This document shows positions 52,777 through 64,000 of a stretch of DNA of 64,000 bases, piece after piece (positions within the stretch are counted from its first letter, which is position 1; every line of letters starts with the position of its first letter). Source of the stretch: Peribacillus kribbensis DSM 17871. GTDB lineage: Bacteria > Bacillota > Bacilli > Bacillales > DSM-1321. The notes under the pieces were generated by a model, which was not told where the DNA came from, did not search any database, and saw nothing but the letters and a program-made list of their open reading frames with translations. The stretch spans positions 243,729 to 307,728 of the forward strand of contig NZ_KE387239.1 of the NCBI RefSeq assembly GCF_000430765.1, read 5' to 3'. Both the position numbers and the translations under genes were made by a program.

Positions 52777-53619
52777 TCAGGGTTTCTTTGCAGTGTAGGA
52801 GGCGAACTTTTTAAGTTCGTCTTCTTCTATTTTTTCGGTAATATCCAAATATGTATCAGCTGTTGTTTTAATCGTTTTGTGCCCTAATCGTTGTGATACG
52901 TATTTAATACTAGCCCCAGATTCAAGCAGAAGCACTGCATGTGTATGCCTAAATCCGTCCGTGCCTTTATATTCTACACCGGCGGCTTTTGCACAGTAAT
53001 CACGAATCGAATCTCGAACAGTTGAAGGCGTTAAGTAGTTCCCTAGATAATTTTGAAAAATGATGCCATCCTTATTTATTTGGAAGCCCTCGTAACTTAA
53101 AATCATTTCGTTTTGCTTTAATTTAAATTTCCTTAATTCATGTACTAATTCTTCTTCCATTTGGATTGTACGATAAGAAGATGAATTTTTTAGCGTGGTG
53201 ATTTTCACTTCATTGTTATCAGTTCTTCTTGTCTGTTTATTTACCGATATTTTATTTCCATCAATATCTGACCACTTTAATGCTAGGGCTTCACTGATAC
53301 GTAAACCTGTCCTACTTAAAAAATACATTAGCATATAGTAAAGTTGATATTCTGGAAACCGTTGATATTTATAGGACATCATGTACTCCAAAAGAATATT
53401 TAGTTCTTTAAGGCTGAAATATTTCACATCTTTCTTCAATGCTACACTGTCCTGCACAGGGACTTTTAAAGCAGGATTCTTTTCCAGCACTACTAACTCG
53501 TGTACGGCATAGTGGAATATACTTTTTAAAACGGAAAGGTACCTCAACCTTAGGATACTCAGTAATGACCTGGTGTTCCTCACCAGCCATTTAACGGAAA
53601 GTGGACAAGCTGTATTCAC
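52777..53619 (-). pseudogene. 5'-truncated tyrosine recombinase (integrase)
   Basis: The 280-residue frame is the C-terminal two thirds of a phage/ICE-type integrase. Catalytic residues: Arg107 (TGLRISEALAL), a beta-strand Lys near 144, Arg224 in DGFRHTHAVLLL, His247 in RLGHKTIKTT and Tyr257. The usual first His of H-x-x-R is Asp221. Residues 20-60 are only the end of the core-binding domain, and what precedes is not integrase-like; normal members are about 370-390 residues, so the N-terminus is lost. Its place right after sufB marks the edge of an imported segment. No att repeats were identified. Confidence 0.8.
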
Positions 53620-53897
53620 GGCAATTCAAAAAGAAGGATGATGAATACAAATCGTTGTAGCAGAATGGAAAACGAAGGCTGAAATGATACCTTTGATCAA
53701 TTCTTTCGCTTTTACATCCCAAAAAATTTTCAATCCACAGTAGGGGTTATCAGGTTCAACCATTTTTATAAGGTGATTTTCCTGTAGGGAGATTTTTTAG
53801 TCACTAAACTAATGTACATTTTTTACGAATCTGTCCATAAAGACACATCATTTTTTCCATTAACATATTATAAACAGATAAGGGGGGTTTGTACAAA

Positions 53898-55298
53898 ATG
53901 AAGCCAATGATAGTTTCAGAGATTCTTCCTATTATTGATGGTCAATTAACAATAGGATCAGAAAAAATAGAAATTCTTTATGGTGCCTATCGTTTAAAGC
54001 AGATAAAAAGGTCAAATACCATTTTTTTTCTAAGAAAAAGTGTAAAGTTAGTAGATTTGAATAAATTAAATAAGTATGCTCCGTTAGTTATTGTGACTGA
54101 ACATTTTTATGACAATGTAGAAGATGAAAACCTTTTAGCCATTATTAAAGTAAATGATATAGAAGCTGCCTTTTGGAAGTTCATCCGTTTTTATCGTAAC
54201 CAGTTCCAGATTCCAATTGTTGCCGTTACAGGTACTTCGGGGAAAACCACGACAAAGGAAATGATCAAACATATTCTAAGGTCCAAACTAAATGTTCAAG
54301 CAACAGGGTTCAGCAATAATTCACGCACAGCCCATATAAGTTACTTATTAGGAATTGATGAGTCTACGGAGGTTGCTGTGTTCGAAACGGCTGTTGGTCA
54401 ACCAGGGGACATATCTCATGCTTGTCAATATTTTCAACCGACAATGGGAGTTATCACAAATATCGGTAGCCATCATTTAAATACCTGTAGGACGAAGGAG
54501 GGGTATATTAAGGCAAAGGGTGAACTGATTGATTCTTTACCGGATGAGGGAGTATTGTTTCTAAATTTTGATGATGAAAATACCAGAAAGTTGAGCTTAG
54601 CTAATTTTTCAGGAAGAGTGGTTACATTTGGCTTGACTGAGCATGCCCAATACCAAGCGACTAATATTAGATATTCAAAAAATGGAATGGAGTATACTTT
54701 GAATGTTGGCACTAACCAATATGATGTATACGTTCCGGGATTTGGGGAGAACCAGGTTTACAATTCGTTAGCTGCCTTAGCTGTCGCTAATGAGATTGGT
54801 GTCTCTTTGCCAGATGGAATTAATCAGTTGACGTCCTTTAAAAATTTGCCGAGGCATTTAGAACAGTGTAGAGGAATTAAAGGCTCAACGATTCTTGATG
54901 ATTCCTGGAATATAACAAGTACTTCATTAGAATCTGCGGTTAAAGTATTAAATGAACTTTCCAACGGAAGAAAAAGAATCCTTGTTATTGACAGCATGAC
55001 AGATTTAGGAGCATGGGGAATAATAATGCAAATGGAAGTTGGAAAAATCATTTGTCACTACGGGGTTGATATCCTCATTACAATTGGTTGGCTTGCGGGA
55101 AAAACTGGTTCCTATGTCGCGGAGCAAGAAATCGGCTGTGAAGTCCATATGTTTGACGATTTCGGTTACTCTCTAGCCTATAATTTATTAGTTGAAAAAA
55201 TAGATGAAAATAGTTTGATATTACTAAAAGGAGACATGGTAAGCAGGGGAATGAAGAGGTTAGTGGCAAAATTAAAGGAAAAAAAGGGATCCGATTGA
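53898..55298 (+). CDS. MurF-like amide ligase
   Basis: ATG 53898 follows AAGGGGGG at the better spacing than a TTG nine bases earlier; 466 residues. The Mur ligase layout is complete: an N-terminal domain (1-105), the central ATPase with P-loop VAVTGTSGKTTTKEMIKHI (near 108-126) and GVITNIGSHHLNTCRTKEGY, and a C-terminal domain with VPGFGENQVYNSLAALAVAN and ILDDSWNITSTSLESAV. MurF proper has DDAYNANP where this protein has DDSWNITS, so the substrate probably differs. An ATP-grasp ligase and a coat protein follow. It is AT-richer than the suf genes. A second MurF-like gene lies at the window end. Confidence 0.85.
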   Translation: MKPMIVSEILPIIDGQLTIGSEKIEILYGAYRLKQIKRSNTIFFLRKSVKLVDLNKLNKYAPLVIVTEHFYDNVEDENLLAIIKVNDIEAAFWKFIRFYRNQFQIPIVAVTGTSGKTTTKEMIKHILRSKLNVQATGFSNNSRTAHISYLLGIDESTEVAVFETAVGQPGDISHACQYFQPTMGVITNIGSHHLNTCRTKEGYIKAKGELIDSLPDEGVLFLNFDDENTRKLSLANFSGRVVTFGLTEHAQYQATNIRYSKNGMEYTLNVGTNQYDVYVPGFGENQVYNSLAALAVANEIGVSLPDGINQLTSFKNLPRHLEQCRGIKGSTILDDSWNITSTSLESAVKVLNELSNGRKRILVIDSMTDLGAWGIIMQMEVGKIICHYGVDILITIGWLAGKTGSYVAEQEIGCEVHMFDDFGYSLAYNLLVEKIDENSLILLKGDMVSRGMKRLVAKLKEKKGSD

Positions 55299-55477
55299 AA
55301 AAAGAACTGTAGAATTAGGCAAATATATATATATGATGATGGAGGAAGGGCGCTTAGAAGTTGCTGCTGTAAACACTTATTCAATTTGGAGGTAACATTT
55401 TTTAAAAAACGTACTTCAGGAATAAACTTTTATACATTAGGGTGACTTAGTTACACTTATTGATGATTGAGCTTAAG

Positions 55478-55504
55478 AAATGATTGCGCCGGCAATCATT
55501 TTTT
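55478..55504 (+). terminator. Terminator downstream of the MurF-like gene
   Basis: AAATGATTGC (55478-55487) pairs with GCAATCATT (55492-55500), then T. Confidence 0.75.
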
Positions 55505-55693
55505 GGTTTTAGTTTAAGATCATATAGGACTTTGATGACCTTCATAACCTAAAAGATAATAATAAAAGAGCATAAAATTTTCTTTATTTTATTACTAATG
55601 TTCACTTTTCGGTTTTGCCTGTAGTGGTAAAAAAGTTATATTACTTGAAGAGATTGTTTAGTAGTCTGTCTTTTCATAACAAATGCTGTCCGG

Positions 55694-55861
55694 CTGTACT
55701 CAGATGGGGTTTTACAGGAAGTTCCGGTTATCATTGCCCTGTTCCAGCAAGAAAGTGGAGGAAACCCCTTGGACGTAATACAATCATCAAAAAGCATCGG
55801 ATTACCCCCTAATACCATTACTGCATTTATAGCTTTTACCCAAGCTTTGCACGGCTTCTAG
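55694..55861 (+). pseudogene. Relic of a CwlT-type lysozyme domain
   Basis: A frame without start codon reads VPVIIALFQQESGGNPLDVI then SSKSIGLPPNTITAF. This matches the N-terminal lysozyme-like domain of CwlT-type cell-wall hydrolases of conjugative elements, whose 'ALMMQESGG...SSES-GLPPNTI' segment I recognise. Only about 55 residues remain. With the integrase fragment it points to a lost conjugative element. Confidence 0.55.
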
Positions 55862-56190
55862 TTAGATCTATATATGCTTCAAAAGCCAATGAGCACGAGC
55901 GGAACAACTTCCCGCGCACTTAAGGCATAAACAATTACACCAGTAGCTGTGCCACTAATGTACAAGTGATGGAAGGGTTCCTATGATTCCTCCAACCAAA
56001 AGATAATCGTTGAGAGAACAAGACGGAAGAGGCAGCCGTACGAATTTCCAATAACACCCCATTCTTGTAAATTGGAAAGCCATAACCACTGTTTCAAAGA
56101 CCTCAAAGAATCCTTCTACCCATAGATCGACCACCAACACCAAAGAATGGATATAATCTGTTACCTTTTGCGGTTTTTTAAAAACTGATT
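55862..56190 (-). pseudogene. Relic of a quinol-type nitric oxide reductase gene (norB)
   Basis: On the minus strand the sequence reads DLWVEGFFEVFETVVMAF, then FTRMG, then GGIIGT. After removing one extra C it continues GTFHHLYISGTATGVIVYAL and EVVPLVLIGF before breaking again. These are hallmark stretches of the large quinol-dependent nitric oxide reductase, including a metal-ligand HH pair. No start, several frameshifts: a fragment only. The remaining stretch 56190-56689 has nothing I can identify. Confidence 0.7.
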
Positions 56191-56689
56191 TACTTCATTC
56201 TCGTTCCAGATAATTCACTACTGTCCATTTAGTTTCCCTTGAATATATATTTTTGCCCACGCAAAACACTTCCAATCTGGGCACTTGTATTGAGTGTACC
56301 ATTTCGAAGGTGTTTTTTAGTGTCTCAATTTTTTATGTTAGTCAACTTCTAATCAAACGGACGGTTGATCTTTTATAAGGACGATATATGCCTATTTTTA
56401 GAACATTTCTTCTCCGTTGTGATTTCTCTGCATATTACTTTGAATACCTTTAAGTCTTCTTCGTCAGTAATACCTAGCTAAATAACAATTATGGTAGTAA
56501 TTATATAATTCTCATAAAATAGTTATGTATAGGCGGATAGTGCTTAAAAGTCACAAACTATAATATTCACCCTGTTACTTAAACGGTAATTCTTTCAATT
56601 TAGCCCAAACCTTTAATGGATAGGTTGAATAACTTGAATTATGACAGGAGGTTAGGATATCTGTAATTTTTCTGAGTGTATGGGAGTGT

Positions 56690-57907
56690 ATGGTTTTGAA
56701 ATCAATTATTTTTATAGGCACGAACAAAACTGGTTCATCCCTTGAAGGTATAAAAGCTGCAAAAAGGCTTGGTTTTAATGTCCACGTGCTCACTGAAAAA
56801 GAAAAATTTTTAACACAAAAGGAGGACTTCTCCGAAATAGATGAGTTTCATCTAGTGGATTTAAAGGATACTGAAAAAATAATAGAGACCATTCTACAGA
56901 TTCACTCAAAACAATCAATTACCTGTATCATTAGTTTTTTGGATTCCTTTGTACATCTTGCAGCCACATTATCTAATGAATTTTGTCAAACCAATCTTTC
57001 AATTGATTCAATGAGAATCATGGAAGACAAATTATTAACAAGACAATTCCTTCATGGTAAGCCTTATTCCCCCATGTATTTTATTTTCAAAAAAAATGAC
57101 ACTATTCCCAACTTGCTCAAACAGGCGAGGGGGAAATTCCCTTTGATTGTAAAATTGCCCCAATCTTGCGGGTCAAAGGATGTTTTTCTTGTTACCTCTG
57201 AAAGACAGTTATGGTATCGAATAAAGAATATACAGAAAAAAACTCCGGAGACTGACATACTGATAGAGGAATACCTTGATGGGCCGCAAGTCATTGTAGA
57301 AGCAATTGTCCATAAAGGAAACATCAATATTGCAGCAATCATTGAACAGAAAATTACAAAAAGTGAGAGGTTTATTGTTACCGGATACAGTATTTCATCA
57401 GAATTAGATCCAGTGTCATATAATTCCCTTATGAGTGTTTCTCATGAAATTATCCGGGATTTAGGGTTAGTGAATGGAAACTGTCATCTTGAGTTAAGAT
57501 GTGTCAGTGAAAATTGGAAGCTTATTGAAGCAAATCCTCGTATCTCAGGAGGGGTAATGAACAACCTGATAAAAGAGGCATATGGAATAGATTATGCGGA
57601 ACAAATTATTAAGGTTTATTTGGGCAGTGAGCCAGTATTGACAAGGGACAGAGAAGATACAGTTTGTGCTCATTTTATGACAGTTGACTCAGCTGGGGAA
57701 CTGATAAAAGTAACAGGAAGAAATCAAGCATCAAACGTGCCTGGTGTTGTAGAAGTATTTATTAAACCGAAAAAAGGGGACTTTTTAATGCCCCCTTTAT
57801 CGATGGGAAATCGTTGCGGTTATGTATTAGCTAAATGTAGTTCTAAGGCAGAAACAGAGACCATAGCATTAGATGCTGCAAGCTTAATCAAATTTCACAT
57901 TAAATGA
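56690..57907 (+). CDS. ATP-grasp protein, L-amino-acid-ligase/carboxylase-like
   Basis: A 405-residue ATP-grasp enzyme. The N-terminal domain (1-105) opens SIIFIGTNKTGSSLEGIKAA, a nucleotide-fold start seen in carbamoyl-phosphate- and amino-acid-ligase-type proteins. The ATP-grasp part has KFPLIVKLPQSCGSKDVFLV, ILIEEYLDGPQVIVEAIVHK, and the metal site in NCHLELRCVSENWKLIEANP then RISGG. The C-terminal part (about 320-405) resembles the extra domain of L-amino acid ligases. Such enzymes couple two amino acids or a carboxylate and an amine. The start is ambiguous: ATG 56690 or TTG 56696, with GGGAG upstream. A coat-like gene follows 33 bases later, probably in one operon. Confidence 0.78.
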   Translation: MVLKSIIFIGTNKTGSSLEGIKAAKRLGFNVHVLTEKEKFLTQKEDFSEIDEFHLVDLKDTEKIIETILQIHSKQSITCIISFLDSFVHLAATLSNEFCQTNLSIDSMRIMEDKLLTRQFLHGKPYSPMYFIFKKNDTIPNLLKQARGKFPLIVKLPQSCGSKDVFLVTSERQLWYRIKNIQKKTPETDILIEEYLDGPQVIVEAIVHKGNINIAAIIEQKITKSERFIVTGYSISSELDPVSYNSLMSVSHEIIRDLGLVNGNCHLELRCVSENWKLIEANPRISGGVMNNLIKEAYGIDYAEQIIKVYLGSEPVLTRDREDTVCAHFMTVDSAGELIKVTGRNQASNVPGVVEVFIKPKKGDFLMPPLSMGNRCGYVLAKCSSKAETETIALDAASLIKFHIK

Positions 57908-57940
57908 AATGAATGAATATTTTTGAAAAGGAGTATTACA

Positions 57941-58369
57941 ATGCACCGTCACCATGAAGATCATTTATACGACTCGTTAAAATTTAGTTTAGCTGAACAG
58001 TATTTTATCAATGATCTTTTTACTAAAGAAAAACTTTTGTTTCTGTTTGATGAGAATGAAAAACCAACTCCGTTTATTCTTTTTAAAAATAGTGGCAATC
58101 CTTTTGAAGGGATAGCGTTGACGGGGTATTTCACTTCACCATTTTTTATTTTGAAAAGTGTAGATGAAAAGCACTGTTGTGCTGTCCTCGCTTTACTTGA
58201 GCCTGTCGGTATCGATGGATGTACAGTTGAATTTCCCGGCCCTCTTTATTCCCTTTTAGAAACTGACCATTTAATTACAGTGTCTCTAAATCACTTTTGC
58301 GGTTTGCAAATATTGCCACGTGAATTAGTCAACCGTCCTATTCCGGATTGTAAACATAACAAGTGTTAA
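57941..58369 (+). CDS. CotY/CotZ/ExsY-like spore coat or exosporium protein
   Basis: ATG 57941 with AAAAGGAG seven bases upstream; 142 residues. The protein follows the CotY/CotZ pattern: TPFILFKNSGNPFEGIALTG, then SPFFILKSVDEKHCCAVLAL, LLETDHLITVSLNHFCGLQI, and the ending CKHNKC. Cysteines (CC near 84, one in NHFCGL, two at the end) suit the disulfide cross-linking of this family. The His-rich start (MHRHHEDH) is unusual. Family members build the crust or exosporium around the spore, so expression late in the mother cell is likely, though I found no clear sigma-K promoter. Confidence 0.78.
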   Translation: MHRHHEDHLYDSLKFSLAEQYFINDLFTKEKLLFLFDENEKPTPFILFKNSGNPFEGIALTGYFTSPFFILKSVDEKHCCAVLALLEPVGIDGCTVEFPGPLYSLLETDHLITVSLNHFCGLQILPRELVNRPIPDCKHNKC

Positions 58370-58509
58370 TCTTTCCTTGCTTTAGATCAATCATGGATTA
58401 AAACGTATTAATGTGTATTACAGTTTCTTCAAATAGCACTAATATTATAAGAAATGTAATGAAGAATGCTGCAGGGAAAAAGCTAACTTATTTTACAGTA
58501 ATTAAGCAC

Positions 58510-58542
58510 AATAAGCCAAAGTCCTTAATACTTTGGCTTATT
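58510..58542. terminator. Bidirectional terminator
   Basis: AATAAGCCAAAGT (58510-58522) pairs perfectly with ACTTTGGCTTATT (58530-58542), between the coat gene and the convergent carboxypeptidase fragment. Confidence 0.85.
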
Positions 58543-58605
58543 ACTTCCTTACTGCCTAAGAAATAATTCCGATAAAATGTAAGATTATCCAAGAGAAAAC
58601 AATAG

Positions 58606-59373
58606 TTAATCAGTAATTAATAACGAAAAAGCATAATCAAGCAGCATTATGGTTTCATTGTTCCTTACTTCTCGTGAGGGTTCGCCCAGCACAATCGCAA
58701 GTACTCTATGATTATTTCTCATAGCAGTAGCAACTAAACAGAAACCTGCTTGTGGCGTATACCCAGTCTTTAACCCATCTGCACCTCTATAGGTTCCTAT
58801 TAATGGGTTTGTATTTTTTATCGTCTTGGGTGCTTGTCCTATAAAAATTTTTGCTGTAGGCAGACTTGAAATTTGAAGTATTGGTTTCCATTCAATAAGT
58901 TTTTGGGAAAGTGTAGCGATATCTCTTGCAGATGAATAATGTTCAGATGAATGCAGCCCATGAGGATTAGTAAAATGAGTATTGACAAGCCCTATTTCTT
59001 TAGCTTTTTGGTTCATCTTTTGTACAAATTCTTCTATGCTTGGCTCTGTATGGGCAGCAAGTGCTACTGCAGCATCGTTCCCCGAAGCAATCATAAGCCC
59101 CTTTAGCAAATCGTTTACAGAAATAGTGTCGTTATATTTAAGCATTAGTCGTGAACCAATTATAGATTCGGCATAATAATTTATCCTAACATGGTCATTG
59201 AGATGAATAGTTTCCTTTTGGACTTCTTCAATGACCAGAAGGGCTGTCATAATCTTAGTAAGGCTGGCGTTCGGCAACCTTTGGTCTGCGTTTTTTTGAA
59301 AAAGAATATCTCCGCTGTTTAAGTGAACGAGAATTACTGATTTAGCATTAAGATCATTAATATTGACAAGAAT
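58606..59373 (-). pseudogene. D-alanyl-D-alanine carboxypeptidase (S11, DacF-like) lacking signal peptide
   Basis: The catalytic domain is intact: SxxK in NASLTKIMTALL, SGN in MIASGNDAAVALAAHTEP and KTG in ADGLKTGYTPQAGFCLV. Homology extends upstream of the first usable start codon (TTG 59277) through VILVHLNSGDILFQKNAD to about 59373, where the frame is soon closed by a stop. No signal peptide or ATG is present, and the C-terminal domain of normal class is missing too. An enzyme made from TTG 59277 would stay in the cytoplasm. I treat it as a 5'-truncated gene. Confidence 0.65.
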
Positions 59374-60068
59374 CCCCTTCCCTCTATTTTATCTTATTTT
59401 TAACTGGTATTCCTCGCCAATATATGCAGAAAAAATATGTTGGTAACGGCATTTGGCAGATTACAAAAAGATAAATACGACCCGGTTATCTGAAAGTAGT
59501 GGAATCTAAAACCATAAAAGGGTAAAAGAGCGAGGGTTTTCCGCTCTTTTATTATTACAAGGGTTACATAGGTTCACAGTTCATCCTAAAGTTACCACTT
59601 CCGCACTGTAAACCGGCCGTAATCACTAATGACAAACCATCCAATTCTTGGATGGTTTTAAAACGAAAAAGGGAGTGAAGGCCGGGAGGGTAGTGAAAAT
59701 TTTTAATGTCAAAGGAACTTTTTTCCTATCATAAAGAAGCCTATAGTTGCAACGCTTTCCTGAATTTTTAATTAAAAAATACAATTTTATTTCACTTTTT
59801 AATAGAACCTTATTTTGATTTTTCAATTACCGAGAAATATTATAGTAATATAATTGTCATTTTTGTAATTGATTTTGCAACTCCCTGTTATTTTTTTGCG
59901 AAATAATCCATGTTAAGATATGTCTGCAACACAGGAAATGGAAGTCTAAAAATGGTAAATAACATTAAAACAATCATTGCAGTGTGGTTTTAATCAGAGG
60001 TCGGAGATTCAGTCCTATTTGACTTATTATTTCTAAAAAAATTATCTTGATATAAGCAGGAGGTACTT
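59374..60068. other. Intergenic region with two hairpins
   Basis: No gene is supported in these 695 bases. Two hairpins are present: AAAAGAGCG/CGCTCTTTT (59524-59532, 59542-59550) and CCATCCAA/TTGGATGG (59638-59645, 59648-59655), both followed by T-rich sequence. The rest is AT-rich and leads to the NlpC/P60 gene, whose ribosome site AGGAGG is at about 60058-60063. Confidence 0.5.
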
Positions 60069-61007
60069 ATGAAAAAACGTATGATAAAAACAGCAGTAGC
60101 AACAACCATTCTATTCTCTGCATTCAGCTTCGAGGTTCCTACCCTACAGGCAACACATAAAGCAGAGGCCGCAACTCTTATACCAAACCCCTATAATAAC
60201 CAAACTGCCGTAAATGCTAAAGCGCAGGCTATCATAAATACTGCGAAGTCATTAATAGGAAAAGCAACTTACAGTAACACAGTGTATAAAAAGACATATC
60301 CATATGAGTTTTCTTGTGCAAGTTATATAAACTTTATCTTTGGACAAAATGGGATTAACCTATCAACATATGATGAAAGTAACTATGCACAAATGGGGTA
60401 TTACGTCCCAAAAAATCAGTTACAGCCGGGAGACTTAGTGTTCTCTTCCGCAACCCCCGGAGGTAAGATTAACCATGTTGCCATGTATATAGGGAACAAC
60501 AAAATAATACAGATGGCAGACCCGAAGCAGAATATTTGTATTACCGACATTACTACTACACCTTACTGGATTAATAACTATATAACAGCTAGAAGAGTAT
60601 TGCCTAGCCTAATGGATGCTAACCCAGCTACATTCGGAGATCACATCTCAGATATAGCATACGGTGAGTTGAATAATGCAAGCAAACTGCCAGCTTCTAG
60701 TCTAACACACATCGGTTTCGTGAAGGATGTATTTAATAAGTACAATACCCCTATTAGTGCAACAACTCTAACTGGTCTAATGAGAATGGGTACTACTATC
60801 TCAGTCCCATCAAAGCTCCGAAAAGGCGACCTGGTCTTCTTAAGTTCAAATGGGACTACAGCCTATTCTGTAGGCATTTACACAGGAGATACTAGAATAG
60901 TTTATGCTTATAACGGTAAGGCGAATACTAGAGTGCTATCAGATTTCCAAAGAGCTGGCGGTGCTAGTCAATTCCTTACAGCAAGACGTATCTCTTATGG
61001 TCAGTAG
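60069..61007 (+). CDS. Secreted tandem NlpC/P60 protein, second domain degenerate
   Basis: The 312-residue protein has a Sec signal peptide (basic start, hydrophobic core, cleavage likely after AEA near 36). The first NlpC/P60 domain (about 45-175) keeps the nucleophilic Cys in YEFSCASYINFIFG and the His in KINHVAMYIGNNKI, so it may hydrolyse peptidoglycan peptides. The second (about 190-312) repeats the fold (LRKGDLVFLSSN, VGIYTGDTRIVYAYNG) but has Ile where Cys is expected (LTHIGFVKDVF) and Ser for His, so it should be inactive and may bind the wall. A decayed further copy of this second domain follows. Confidence 0.85.
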   Translation: MKKRMIKTAVATTILFSAFSFEVPTLQATHKAEAATLIPNPYNNQTAVNAKAQAIINTAKSLIGKATYSNTVYKKTYPYEFSCASYINFIFGQNGINLSTYDESNYAQMGYYVPKNQLQPGDLVFSSATPGGKINHVAMYIGNNKIIQMADPKQNICITDITTTPYWINNYITARRVLPSLMDANPATFGDHISDIAYGELNNASKLPASSLTHIGFVKDVFNKYNTPISATTLTGLMRMGTTISVPSKLRKGDLVFLSSNGTTAYSVGIYTGDTRIVYAYNGKANTRVLSDFQRAGGASQFLTARRISYGQ

Positions 61008-61156
61008 GAGGGGGGCCTTCGGAACCTTGTTCCACCATTCTATGTTTCAATTCTTCAAACCCTCTGAAGCAAGAGGCAAAAACCACGGTAGGGAATTCTA
61101 AATGAAGAGTTGTAATATGAAAAAGGGTGGATTTGGCAACAAGAGCGAGGCGACAA

Positions 61157-61282
61157 TGCTTTGGTATTTACACATTTGATACGGGCATAGTATATGTATA
61201 CAAAGCGATCAATATTTTCAGCAAAACATGTGGTACAATAAAAAATTTTGAACCGACATTCTTATCTGCGGAATTATTTTTC
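61157..61282 (+). pseudogene. Relic of another NlpC/P60 domain
   Basis: The frame reads FGIYTFDTGIVYVYKAINIF and then FEPTFLSAELFF, matching VGIYTGDTRIVYAYNG and FLTARRI of the preceding gene's last domain. No start, no upstream half of the domain. It suggests a formerly longer or duplicated hydrolase gene. Confidence 0.5.
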
Positions 61283-61322
61283 AAAGAACCTGTATCTTTT
61301 AATGGATATAGGTTCTTTGTTG
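61283..61322 (+). terminator. Hairpin after the NlpC/P60 relic
   Basis: AAAGAACCT (61283-61291) pairs with AGGTTCTTT (61310-61318), with GTATC/GATAT inner pairing. A hairpin of similar sequence lies at 63316-63356. Confidence 0.65.
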
Positions 61323-61377
61323 ATTTTCTCTTCGGAGGCTTCAGCTATCCTGCCTTCTAGTCCAGCTGAGAATGAAT

Positions 61378-61613
61378 CTAATAAGACGCATTTACAGTGA
61401 TAACAGCTATTCCTGTAAAGTCCATCGTAATTGGTGCCATTGTAGGAAGGAATATTTTGTAAACTGATAGGTAACCCGAGCAGTGTGAAGTTAACACTCA
61501 CAAGTCCACCTGCTTCAGGTACTGCTACCGTGGCAGATTCGCTGCCTGAAAGGGTAGTTAAGGTGACAGACAGTAACTAAAACCGGCGCAGACGTTGTTA
61601 CTCCCATATTCAT
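61378..61613 (-). pseudogene. Frameshifted small beta-rich protein gene
   Basis: Behind AGGAGATGAA an ATG (61613) opens MNMGVTTSAPVLVT. A frameshift then leads to VTLTTLSGSESATVAVPEAG and SVNFTLLGLPISLQNIP, and a second shift to ITMDFTGIAVITVNASY with a stop at 61378. Joined, these would make a protein of about 75-80 residues dominated by beta strands and Thr/Val/Ser, like small secreted or spore-surface proteins. Two shifts make it a pseudogene in this sequence. It lies just downstream of the YheC/YheD-type gene, same strand. Confidence 0.5.
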
Positions 61614-61741
61614 TTCATCTCCTGTAGGCCAGGATGTTGGAAAAGGATTAGGTACCTAGCAAGAGATATTTTAATGCTTACAATATCTATTTGGGGGTAC
61701 ATTAAAATATTTTGGACGTGCGCAGTAGTCCAATAGCGGAA

Positions 61742-63064
61742 TTATTGGGGAGATTGCTTTCTTACCCAGCCATTCCACTTTTTTACTACATTTTTATACA
61801 CACTTTTGTCCTCTAATCTTAAAAATAGTGAAATATCGGGAACGAGGTTCGTTTCGAAAATCCAAAAATTACCTCTGTTATCGATACCAATATCTATGCC
61901 GATATCCGTAACATTCAGGTAATGTTTTCCCAATACGTCTGAACAAATCGTACAAACCTTATCCATTGTTAACAGTGAACTTTCCTTAATACTTTTAATT
62001 GTAGAAGATTCTAAGGCTTCTTCCAGAGACATAATGGTTTTGGCTGCATTGGTGACCACATAGTCTTTGAAAGCCACTTTCACTGCCTTTGCAGTGATTT
62101 CCCATTCATTGCCACTATGATTCCGCTGGACCATAACACGTACGTCAATGACAGAATCATCGATCTTTGCCAAATCTATTCTTTCCTGGACGATATATCT
62201 TTGTTTTGACAAAAAATTGGCCTCCAGGTAATTAATCATTTCTTGGACGCCTTTAAACCTGAGTTTTCCTCTTTCGTGATGTAACTCGAAACTATCCGCT
62301 TTTTGCCAGGATATTTTTACAATGCCAATCCCCCATTGACCCAAACAAGGCTTTAGCATGATTTCTTGATATTTCATTAAAAAATGAAAGATGGTATCCG
62401 GGGTGGCAAGTTCGGTATGGGGGAGAAAAGGAGGCAATTCGTTAACAGATGATAAGATTTGATGCTGGCTCCACTTGCTCTTGGGGGTGTGCAGTTCGAT
62501 GTCTTTGATCCATAGGTGTTGGTCTAATAATCCTAATTCAACTAAAACGGTGAAACATGCGGGGTCATCACCTGCAATACTTATTGCCGTTTCAATAGCG
62601 ATTTCAGCTATTTTTTTTCGGGAAAACCCGGTAATTCTATTTTTTAAATTTCCCTGCTCCTCAAGAATGTCTGTAACCTGCCATACTGAATTTAAATCTC
62701 TTTGTACTGTGGCCAGCAGTTCAACCATTTCACCTTCCCTTTTGTATAGGAACTCTGTATCCTGCAGCAGATAATATTGCCCTTCTTTGCAAACTCCAGT
62801 TAAGTAATCAAGGACGTCTGCTTTTCCGCTTACGGTGGTTGTAACACTATTATCAACTATATTATATTTCTCATCGTAGTAATCCAATTTAGATATAATG
62901 ATTTCCCTTTGGCCATAGCAAGGCTTAAAGGTTAGGTGAGAGGGCAGGTTACGATAAAAGGTTTTTTCATCAAACAATTCCGTTTTTAATAAAAAGGGTC
63001 TTATGGCCTCAATAGAATAGAGTTTTTGATACTGACGCCATCTTCCTCTTATTTGTTTACTCAT
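61742..63064 (-). CDS. YheC/YheD-type coat-associated ATP-grasp protein with internal duplication
   Basis: A 440-residue protein; ATG 63064 behind AAAGGGGG. The C-terminal half (about 205-440) is a full YheC/YheD ATP-grasp domain: ELATPDTIFHFLMKYQEIML, KPCLGQWGIGIVKISW, RYIVQERIDLAKIDDSVIDV, RVMVQRN and the metal site DIGIDNRGNFWIFETN. The N-terminal half (about 20-165) repeats the first part of that domain (TELFDEKTFYRNLPSHLTFK, PCYGQREIIISKLD, YYLLQDTEF, VQRDLNSVWQVTDIL) but lacks the metal-binding end. B. subtilis YheC/YheD are spore-coat associated and chemically uncharacterised. It follows a 42-residue peptide gene on the same strand. Confidence 0.85.
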   Translation of the reverse strand: MSKQIRGRWRQYQKLYSIEAIRPFLLKTELFDEKTFYRNLPSHLTFKPCYGQREIIISKLDYYDEKYNIVDNSVTTTVSGKADVLDYLTGVCKEGQYYLLQDTEFLYKREGEMVELLATVQRDLNSVWQVTDILEEQGNLKNRITGFSRKKIAEIAIETAISIAGDDPACFTVLVELGLLDQHLWIKDIELHTPKSKWSQHQILSSVNELPPFLPHTELATPDTIFHFLMKYQEIMLKPCLGQWGIGIVKISWQKADSFELHHERGKLRFKGVQEMINYLEANFLSKQRYIVQERIDLAKIDDSVIDVRVMVQRNHSGNEWEITAKAVKVAFKDYVVTNAAKTIMSLEEALESSTIKSIKESSLLTMDKVCTICSDVLGKHYLNVTDIGIDIGIDNRGNFWIFETNLVPDISLFLRLEDKSVYKNVVKKWNGWVRKQSPQ

Positions 63065-63141
63065 TTAAAAACCCCCTTTCCATATTCACATTAAAGTTAT
63101 CAACATGAGGATTACAATTTGGGCAGCCAGTAAAACATTCC

Positions 63142-63270
63142 TCAGCTGAAGTTTATTGTATCTGTGAATCGAGTTTCCACTCCACCAGAGTTAACTACTA
63201 CCGCCGTTGCTGTGGCTTTATTCCCTTGAATATCTAAACGAAACTTACAAGGGCATGGATTTAAACCCAT
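63142..63270 (-). CDS. 42-aa cysteine-containing peptide upstream of the ATP-grasp gene
   Basis: AAGGAGGTGA is placed ideally before ATG 63270. The product begins MGLNPCPCKFRLDIQGNKAT, continues with strand-like TATAVVVNSGGVETRFTDTI and ends NFS at TGA 63142. A shift of one base near the end would extend it through SAEECFTGCPNCNPHVDNF to a TAA at 63057-63059 that overlaps the ATG of the ATP-grasp gene, giving a roughly 70-residue protein with a second cysteine cluster. Whether the shift is a mutation, a sequencing error or programmed is open. The role could be coat protein or substrate of the neighbouring ligases. Confidence 0.6.
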   Translation of the reverse strand: MGLNPCPCKFRLDIQGNKATATAVVVNSGGVETRFTDTINFS

Positions 63271-63315
63271 TTATTTTTCACCTCCTTCTACATCTTTTTG
63301 ACTGTGATATGAAAT

Positions 63316-63356
63316 TAGAAGAACCGATATCTATTAAACAGGTATGGGTTCTTCTT
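63316..63356 (-). terminator. Hairpin between the MurF-like gene and the peptide gene
   Basis: AGAAGAACC (63317-63325) pairs with GGTTCTTCT (63348-63356), with ATATC/GTAT inner pairing. It may end or attenuate the minus-strand MurF-like transcript. Confidence 0.6.
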
Positions 63357-63369
63357 TATCGTGATTAAC

Positions 63370-64000
63370 TTAGACACCTTTACTTGCTTCTGCCTCAATT
63401 TCACCTAATGCAGAAACGATAAACTCAACGGTTTCAAACATATTGGTTTTGCTTGCACCTTTTACCAGAACGGCATCGTTTTCTTGAATGAGTTCTAATA
63501 AATAACGATGCATCAAATCTTTATCCGCAAAATGTCTGACATTTTCAGACGGCATCCCGGCATTAATCGCTCCCAGCCCAATTGTATCCGCTCTGTACCC
63601 GTAAGTGATTAAATGATCAATACCTTGTTCAACAAGATATTTACCAACTTTTTGGTATTGTTCCAGCAATAAATTGCCCAGTTCCCGCATTTGTCCAAGG
63701 ATGGCGACTTTCCTTGCAGGTCCAATATTTCTTAGAACATCAATCGCAGCAAATACTGCTTGCGGCTGGGAATGAACGGTATCATCGATCACAGTTACAG
63801 ATTGATTTAAATGGTAGACTGTCATTCGGCGGGGGGGTTTTTTAAATAGGAGGCCTGATTTTATCTCAAGTGGTGTCATTCCTAAATAATCCGCAACTGC
63901 AATGGCATTTATGGCATTGTAAACATGGTGCTCGCCAAAAATCGGAATAAAAAATGAATGTTCTTCACCGCTAAGCTGCATTTTAAAGTTCATGCCATTC
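63370..64000 (-). CDS. MurF-like amide ligase, C-terminal part (runs off the window)
   Basis: The last 210 or so residues of a second Mur-family ligase; the frame continues past the window edge, so the Met at 63993 is not the start. Visible are IPIFGEHHVYNAINAIAVAD, matching FGENQVYNSLAALAVAN of the gene at 53898, and the C-terminal ligand-binding strand VTVIDDTVHSQPQAV in place of MurF's DDAYNANP, then VAILGQMRELG and VLVKGASKTNMF. The P-loop domain lies outside. It is upstream of, and on the same strand as, the peptide and YheC/YheD-type genes. Confidence 0.85.
   Translation of the reverse strand, partial: NGMNFKMQLSGEEHSFFIPIFGEHHVYNAINAIAVADYLGMTPLEIKSGLLFKKPPRRMTVYHLNQSVTVIDDTVHSQPQAVFAAIDVLRNIGPARKVAILGQMRELGNLLLEQYQKVGKYLVEQGIDHLITYGYRADTIGLGAINAGMPSENVRHFADKDLMHRYLLELIQENDAVLVKGASKTNMFETVEFIVSALGEIEAEASKGV

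Follow-up and report, generated by a model that had tools for sequence, protein, structure and literature searches.

Recurrent association of L-amino-acid-ligase-like, YheC/YheD-family and Mur-type ligase genes with CotZ-family genes in Bacillales

Introduction

Why would a spore-forming bacterium encode several predicted amide-bond-forming ligases beside a relative of a spore coat gene? This question is raised by an island at the end of a 64,000-nucleotide stretch (the window) of the 5.05-Mb genome of Peribacillus kribbensis DSM 17871 (contig NZ_KE387239.1, C3:243729-307728). The island encodes L-amino-acid-ligase-like ATP-grasp proteins (LAL), YheC/YheD-family ATP-grasp proteins (YheC/D), Mur-type ligases related to MurF, a fusion of YheC/D with a Mur ligase, and a divergent relative of the outer-layer protein CotZ. 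It continues for ~7 kb beyond the window end, and each ligase type is present at least twice in the whole island. An earlier reading of the DNA letters (the sequence-only reading) had proposed that the set makes or attaches a peptide or polyamide on the spore surface.

Comparison across genomes reveals that LAL and YheC/D form the recurrent core, that a CotZ-like gene often accompanies them and that Mur ligases are joined onto this core, sometimes within one polypeptide. We consider the chances about even that the island encodes ATP-dependent amide ligases of the late-sporulation mother cell, which would build a peptide without the ribosome at the outer layer of the spore. The known chemistry of this layer includes disulphide bonds, glycosylation and transglutaminase cross-links; if our reading is true, non-ribosomal peptide ligation, with its own coat-protein partner, would be added to these. 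It would also help account for the arrays of unexplained YheC/D ATP-grasp genes in some spore-formers.

To our knowledge, B. subtilis has no such cluster. In the open literature, we found no paper joining ATP-grasp or Mur ligases with the exosporium and none joining ATP-grasp, YheC and the spore, while papers joining ATP-grasp with the spore coat appear unrelated by title. A 2009 survey of amidoligases is said to have predicted a role for YheC/D in spore-wall modification, so the general idea may have a precedent.

Results

The main comparison covered 299 genomes of the order Bacillales. LAL (E 1e-60) was present in 29 of these and YheC/D of the type found in the fusion (E 1.3e-74 or better) in 25, all of which lie within the 29; because no more than three YheC/D candidates were scored in each genome, further copies may be missed. 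The LAL-bearing genomes without fusion-type YheC/D at this threshold are G055, G153, G178 and G204. When LAL was scored at E 1e-30, it was found in 14/14 genomes with fusion-type YheC/D versus 1/16 control genomes without it (drawn from two families), and that one match was a fragment. The genes also lie close together: of 31 places with YheC/D, 29 have LAL no more than 2.5 kb away, and in 23 the distance is no more than 500 bases; the two exceptions are second copies. Since the association recurs across many families, it exceeds what chance would give. Together, co-occurrence and YheC/D-LAL distances rule out neighbours that vary at random between genomes, an alternative raised in the sequence-only reading. 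LAL, YheC/D and CotZ-like genes recur together, but the unit differs from the one drawn in that reading, with LAL and YheC/D as its core and the Mur ligases as additions.

LAL, YheC/D and tail-bearing CotZ genes (described below) form same-strand runs in loci L113, L114, L115, L117 and L121. A comparison of 398 genomes across the phylum turned up G355, from another class, with consecutive genes for YheC/D, two short Mur proteins and LAL. Because SpoIVA is present in 288/299 genomes, including all 29 with LAL, restriction to spore-formers is uninformative as a test.

The ligases and the CotZ-family protein of the island are as follows.

53889..55298, + strand: MurF-like ligase of the 'MurAB' clade, 469 amino acids; DDSWNITS replaces NDAYNASP, and the uridine diphosphate (UDP)-binding motif of the N-domain is lost
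56690..57907, + strand: LAL1, L-amino-acid-ligase-like ATP-grasp protein, 405 amino acids; PF13535 and PF18603
57923..58369, + strand: divergent CotZ-family protein, 148 amino acids; PF10612 at 36.1 bits; C-terminus NRPIPDCKHNKC, without EPK(W/C)
61742..63064, - strand: YheC/D ATP-grasp protein, 440 amino acids (Pfam)
63370..64000, - strand: C-terminal part, with DDTVHSQP, of the 731-amino-acid YheC/D-Mur fusion; last 209 codons
L009:11099-13294: complete YheC/D-Mur fusion, 731 amino acids, extending past the window edge
L009:13532-14761, + strand: LAL2, right of the fusion
L009:14922-15905, + strand: YheC/D, 327 amino acids, directly 5′ of the Mur M+C gene
L009:15906-17039, + strand: Mur M+C domain protein, 377 amino acids, split partner of YheC/D
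L009:17288-18667, + strand: MurF-like protein, 459 amino acids, right of the split pair

Reading frames and Pfam recovered every piece that the sequence-only reading had named: two Mur ligases (DDSWNITS and DDTVHSQP), two ATP-grasp proteins, a CotZ-family protein and a short Cys peptide. Its second MurF-like ligase does end as a Mur ligase with DDTVHSQP, but is part of the fusion and not a standalone protein. The spacing of 33 bases between the LAL1 end and the CotY/CotZ-like gene holds from an internal ATG, but is 15 bases from the TTG start. For the first MurF-like gene, the ATG at 53898 had been taken as the start, and the upstream TTG is used here.

Domain assignments were above gathering cut-offs. 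Island YheC/D proteins scored 218.6, 201.0 and 71.4 bits with PF14398 (cut-off 26.8), and the two LALs, which are 40% identical, scored 70.7 and 77.2 bits with LAL_C2 (PF18603; cut-off 29.4) and also contain ATP-grasp_4. These two domains are shared with the L-amino acid ligases of PDB entries 3vot (BL00235) and 4wd3. However, the match to these enzymes is weak (E 1.5e-10, 1.8e-9), and the island LALs differ from them in having YheC/D and CotZ-like genes as neighbours.

We determined how CotZ-family genes are distributed around LAL and YheC/D. The island CotZ scores over the cut-off of 24 bits for PF10612, the family of the CotZ outer-layer proteins, and reaches 40.3 bits with NF040827 (CotZ_rel), below 90. 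The LAL genomes contained 54 CotZ matches, in 24 of the 29; one (G003:C26:135076) was dropped because it had no reading frame. Dividing the matches at 90 bits, a threshold set after viewing the score table, gave 21 divergent and 33 canonical members. Of the divergent CotZ genes, 18/21 had LAL or YheC/D at most 2 kb away. Canonical genes were within 2 kb in 6/33 cases and within 15 kb in 20/33, in 10 genomes, while rough arithmetic predicts fewer than one of the 33. In 18/29 LAL genomes, the ligase module has a CotZ-family gene no more than 2 kb away.

The divergent CotZ paralogues near the module differ from other CotZ-family proteins in being short, in having on average fewer Cys, and in their C-termini. 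The tail (I/V/K)E(P/Q)(K/V)(W/C), followed by at most two residues, was present in 16/18 (one ending at K), and the strict form EPK(W/C) plus 0-2 residues in 13/18. No other CotZ had the tail (0/6 near canonical, 0/29 far). Among 2876 frames of at least 60 amino acids in 60 loci, some of them overlapping, the strict tail occurred in 16, all CotZ-like and at the module. In Domibacillus indicus, a species with the fusion, the CotZ-like protein ends ...VIEPKW. The pattern was defined after viewing 30 CotZ sequences and then applied to the full set, including CotZ sequences added later, and to a further genus (g30; 4/30 loci came from genomes already included, and L163 gave a wrong frame). In that genus, the tail was absent from all 17 readable CotZ proteins without a ligase neighbour, judged with flanks of 1.5 kb. 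Exceptions near the module (see Discussion) show that the EPK(W/C) tail is common but not universal.

Are the Mur-type proteins simply extra copies of MurF? A separate MurF with NDAYNASP is encoded elsewhere in the same genome, at C16. MurF is the top NCBIfam match of the island Mur proteins (TIGR01143; 240.8, 252.0, 253.5 and 258.6 bits), although none reaches its cut-off of 288.6. A tree of 73 Mur domains separates three groups, each making up one side of a branch: housekeeping MurF (17 domains, support 99/91), full-length 'MurAB' (27, 100/100) and the fusion/short type (29, 96/87). (Of 78 matches, five were left out: two duplicates of L045, and L001, L008 and a G003 protein without P-loop as other or doubtful Mur proteins.) The island proteins share the Mur M and C domains with MurF, and all 73 aligned rows keep the P-loop Lys, the Glu, the His and the carbamoyl-Lys of the active site, in agreement with the earlier description of these proteins as amide ligases.

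Other positions set them apart from MurF. Where MurF has NDAYN, most fusion/short rows have DDTVH(S/A)xP and most MurAB rows DDTW or DDSW; because these differences go with two clades apart from housekeeping MurF, they exceed chance. D[ST]R, an N-domain motif of MurF with a role in binding UDP-N-acetylmuramic acid, aligned in 15/17 MurF versus 0/27 MurAB rows, and a looser second N-domain motif, [DNA][GA]H, in 15/17 versus 1/27. The two MurF rows that also lack D[ST]R are both from outside the order. Fusion and short forms have no Mur N-terminal domain (Pfam). Score, N-domain, motif and tree therefore rule out plain vegetative MurF paralogues, the other alternative raised in the sequence-only reading.

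Within the 731-amino-acid fusion, Pfam places PF14398 at 92-341, PF08245 (Mur M) at 370-558 and PF02875 (Mur C) at 579-704. The full-length fusion is intact in 8/299 genomes, including that of the window. It is split into two frames in G033 and into two adjacent genes in G061, G103 and G070, and is also found in Bacillus sp. S/N-304-OC-R1 and Lederbergia citrea. Its presence in 5/24 genomes of one family indicates a patchy, accessory element. Reverse-order fusions of ~800 amino acids, Mur then YheC/D, occur in G187, G076 and G544, and a 716-amino-acid protein of G055 has an LAL_C2-bearing domain (24 bits, under the cut-off of 29.4) followed by Mur. As they are fused in different orders, YheC/D, LAL and Mur ligases are likely to work together. 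Phage records matching the query numbered 33, with identity <60% and none across >80% of the query; in the ten listed, the match was the Mur half plus a little linker. Two further proteins, L060:9741-12278 (845 amino acids) and L063:8442-10898 (818 amino acids), contain two YheC/D ATP-grasp stretches per chain.

The sequence-only reading had noted that cyanophycin synthetase (CphA) and CapB-type polyamide synthases use related domains. We modelled the fusion of Domibacillus indicus (72% identical) with AlphaFold2 (14 rows; predicted local distance difference test score (pLDDT) 77, predicted template modelling score 0.53). Residues 344-719 resemble MurF (4qf5; Z 37.2, 366 residues, 2.8 Å). Among the 50 entries listed, only four, all cyanophycin synthetase 1, could be aligned across the two halves (507-512 residues, Z 29.6-29.8, root-mean-square deviation 15.4-15.7 Å, with the high deviation probably due to domain placement). 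The fusion thus has the layout of cyanophycin synthetase, a single chain in which ATP-grasp precedes the Mur ligase, yet it falls outside that family: with TIGR02068 it scores 59.7 bits against a cut-off of 850, which rules out a true cyanophycin synthetase. It also differs from CphA1 in the YheC/D family of its ATP-grasp half, its spore-coat setting, and its LAL and CotZ-like partners.

When the ATP-grasp half was modelled alone (9 rows, pLDDT 67, core mostly 70-92, first 100 residues poor), RimK led the structural matches (Z 16.4, 181 residues, 2.6 Å), followed by LysX (14.7) and ArgX (14.5). Tubulin tyrosine ligase (TTL) and TTLL6/TTLL enzymes scored Z 12.7-13.9, amid many ATP-grasp folds at 13-14, and Foldseek ranked TTL first. 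RimK, LysX/ArgX (with LysW) and TTL act on protein tails. They are among the nearest folds, but sequence identity is 13-20%, and any protein substrate of the island enzymes is putative.

We next consider links to sporulation. Using a short sigma-K consensus, and with the comparison thinned to one locus per lineage, we found that 78 island starts scored higher than 122 control starts (mean 6.68 versus 6.30; Mann-Whitney p 3.4e-5), while a control with reversed -10 gave p 0.16. Perfect sigma-K-like matches were present at 9/78 island versus 5/122 control starts (p 0.044). Sigma-E-like sites also differed (p 0.0046), and neither sigma-A (p 0.93) nor sigma-G promoters were enriched at island starts. 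In the window genome, two starts have 8/8 sites, that of the fusion (-10 element 37 nt upstream) and that of the first Mur gene, as follows; the remaining island starts score 6 or 7 of 8.

53845..53872, + strand: sigma-K-like promoter match, AC-N17-CATANNNTA, 8/8; -10 starts 25 nt 5′ of the TTG of the first MurF-like gene

The B. subtilis genes yheC and yheD, members of the same YheC/D family, are under sigma-E control and are raised by SpoIIID (PMC517825). Island YheC/D genes differ from these in being fused or adjacent to LAL, Mur ligase and CotZ-like genes.

The pair is also carried on plasmids. In Priestia megaterium QM B1551, pBM600 encodes LAL (BMQ_RS26870, 90199-91428) and YheC/YheD (BMQ_RS26875, 91573-92604) back to back, and pBM300 carries the LAL-YheC/YheD pair again (BMQ_RS25700 and BMQ_RS25695), with a collagen-like protein gene ~3 kb away. 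At E 1e-30, LAL was found in 17 plasmid records, all Priestia. P. megaterium strains that lost the exosporium share the absence of pBM600, according to PMC4674009; a term search of that text gave no mention of ligase, ATP-grasp, YheC or YheD. QM B1551 is therefore a direct test bed, with the pair on a plasmid already tied to exosporium formation.

Several further genes lie in or near the island.

58606..59277, - strand: S11 D,D-carboxypeptidase-like protein; signal peptide not obvious
60069..61007, + strand: NlpC/P60 protein; N-terminal stretch resembles a signal peptide
63142..63270, - strand: short Cys peptide, 42 amino acids, MGLNPCPC...; interrupted frame

Twelve of the other loci read have NlpC/P60 relatives close to the fusion or the split pair, and S11-like genes lie directly beside a Mur-type gene in two other lineages (L057:7766-8542 and L073:10194-10973). 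Adjoining the split YheC/D-Mur pair are M14-type zinc carboxypeptidase genes in L055:9550-11583 (677 amino acids) and L056:8420-10474 (684 amino acids), with Pfam run on L055 only. Two ABC-transporter-like genes (582 and 579 amino acids) lie 3′ of the CotZ-like gene at L044:13852-17311, and likewise in L045, L046 and L047. Between the suf genes and the island, 52777-53619 (- strand) encodes a protein that, from sequence reading, resembles a tyrosine recombinase; with the patchy distribution, this hints at a mobile insertion.

The 42-amino-acid frame of the Cys peptide is real, as the sequence-only reading had it, but it is broken, stopping at a TGA with a Cys-rich continuation in another frame, and the gene may be broken. 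In L042 and L049, the proteins encoded next to the corresponding YheC/D gene (143-148 amino acids) share by eye, unaligned, the MG..CxC start alone. With a broken frame and counterparts alike only in this start, a role for the Cys peptide as a peptide precursor is unsupported. Small proteins of 113-143 amino acids are also found near YheC/D at L089:5612-7024 (three in tandem), L048:11544-11912 and L055:17755-18129, and two of this family start MGxLQGCxxGFW. Pfam gave no family over cut-off for three of these small proteins, nor for the SmlA, SmlB and pBM600 Cys-rich proteins scanned.

Discussion

How might these enzymes act together? In the reading we favour, in which the ligases assemble a peptide at the outer spore layer, LAL would join two amino acids into a building block, as its family suggests. 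YheC/D would then activate a carboxylate, most likely that of the dedicated CotZ tail, and attach the building block, in the manner of RimK, LysX and tubulin tyrosine ligase; we base this step on the fold, on the linkage of the genes and on tail conservation. Mur-type domains, whose usual UDP-muramyl peptide binding is predicted to be lost, could add the next residue or a branch, and the fusion would carry out both steps on a single growing chain, as cyanophycin synthetase does. NlpC/P60, S11 or M14 peptidases may trim or remodel the product, which is probably a peptide that decorates or cross-links the outer spore layer. We advance tentatively, as a somewhat unlikely proposal when taken in full, that LAL, YheC/D and Mur ligases, variously fused, carry out template-free peptide tagging, lengthening a dedicated CotZ paralogue at its EPK(W/C) tail so as to decorate or cross-link the crust or exosporium lattice. 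The chain would be non-ribosomal and possibly isopeptide-linked. The link to the outer spore layer proposed in the sequence-only reading is strong with respect to CotZ linkage and the tail, and weaker from sigma-K-like promoters and pBM600. Its ligase set and coat link hold up; its product and the attachment stay conjectural.

An alternative that we regard as possible but doubtful is that the enzymes make a free small peptide or polyamide, dipeptide-type or cyanophycin-like, that is packed in the spore or released, with CotZ as a neighbour or packaging partner. The LAL_C2 and ATP-grasp_4 domains, as in the L-amino acid ligases 4wd3 and 3vot, and the ATP-grasp-then-Mur order of cyanophycin synthetase would fit such a product; the NlpC/P60 neighbours could be polymer hydrolases, and the ABC-transporter-like pair after CotZ in L044-L047 of one family points the same way. 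Against it stand the pairing of the module with a CotZ paralogue of its own that has an unusual C-terminus, and the presence in 10 genomes of canonical CotZ-family genes no more than 15 kb away. In addition, the transporter pair was noted in four related loci only, and the fusion is far under the cyanophycin synthetase cut-off.

Two other acceptors deserve mention. The Mur proteins could act on UDP-muramyl peptides and change cortex or germ-cell-wall stem peptides, and both the MurF match and the presence of S11, NlpC/P60 and M14 peptidases, families familiar from peptidoglycan, point that way. Muramyl-peptide chemistry is nonetheless unlikely, and we give this alternative little credence: scores are below the murF cut-off, fusion and short forms have no N-domain, D[ST]R is absent from all MurAB rows, and the housekeeping MurF is encoded separately and falls in its own clade. 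Equally improbable, in our view, is a scheme in which the peptide goes not onto CotZ but onto some other small surface protein with Cys, such as the interrupted Cys peptide or SmlA/SmlB-type proteins. Such proteins adjoin YheC/D in the window, L042, L048, L049, L055 and L089 (in three tandem copies there), but they vary between loci and by eye have no common tail, while a CotZ-family gene is next to the module in most LAL genomes.

A number of observations weigh against assembly of a peptide on a CotZ tail at the spore surface. No CotZ match was found in 5/29 LAL genomes. The window CotZ, ending ...DCKHNKC, and L056 CotZ, ending ...NRYKAE, are without the tail, making the acceptor step weaker for the window's own CotZ. 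In genus g30, the tail was present in 3/8 new CotZ proteins beside LAL and missing from 5/8. No EPK-tail frame was present in the plasmid stretches read, where CotZ relatives were not searched for. LAL could instead produce free dipeptides. The RimK/TTL ranking is weak because ATP-grasp folds are alike, and residues 1-99 of the Domibacillus indicus fusion model are poor. A 429-amino-acid Mur relative in G003, outside the 73 rows, has no recognisable P-loop. The promoter evidence uses a short consensus, and its reversed control also has an excess of perfect matches, both in the thinned set (3/78 versus 0/122, p 0.058) and in the unthinned set (5/128 versus 0/220, p 0.0064); because of this excess, we take the sigma-K-like enrichment as supporting evidence. 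The pBM600-exosporium link is a correlation at the level of a 100-kb plasmid, and PMC4674009 leaves a role for pBM500 possible.

If the peptide-assembly reading is true, the fusion would be an unusual CphA-like enzyme for new amide polymers. Two other arrangements were seen among the loci. In G003, a region of ~30 kb (L085 and L115, G003:C26:120000-153900) contains ~12 YheC/D, three MurF-like, LAL and CotZ-like genes, as if each ligase might add one residue; one of the three MurF-like genes is without a recognisable P-loop. In G098, Pfam analysis of L122:5983-14911 identified a COOH-NH2 ligase fused to YheC/D (868 amino acids) and a MurAB-type ligase, in an operon with a phosphoenolpyruvate mutase, a thiamine pyrophosphate enzyme, a cytidine triphosphate (CTP)-transferase/aminotransferase fusion and a NUDIX protein. 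Frames similar in size and order are present in G151 (L123:6219-15156), with Pfam run on L122 only. The gene content of this operon suggests an amide-linked 2-aminoethylphosphonate.

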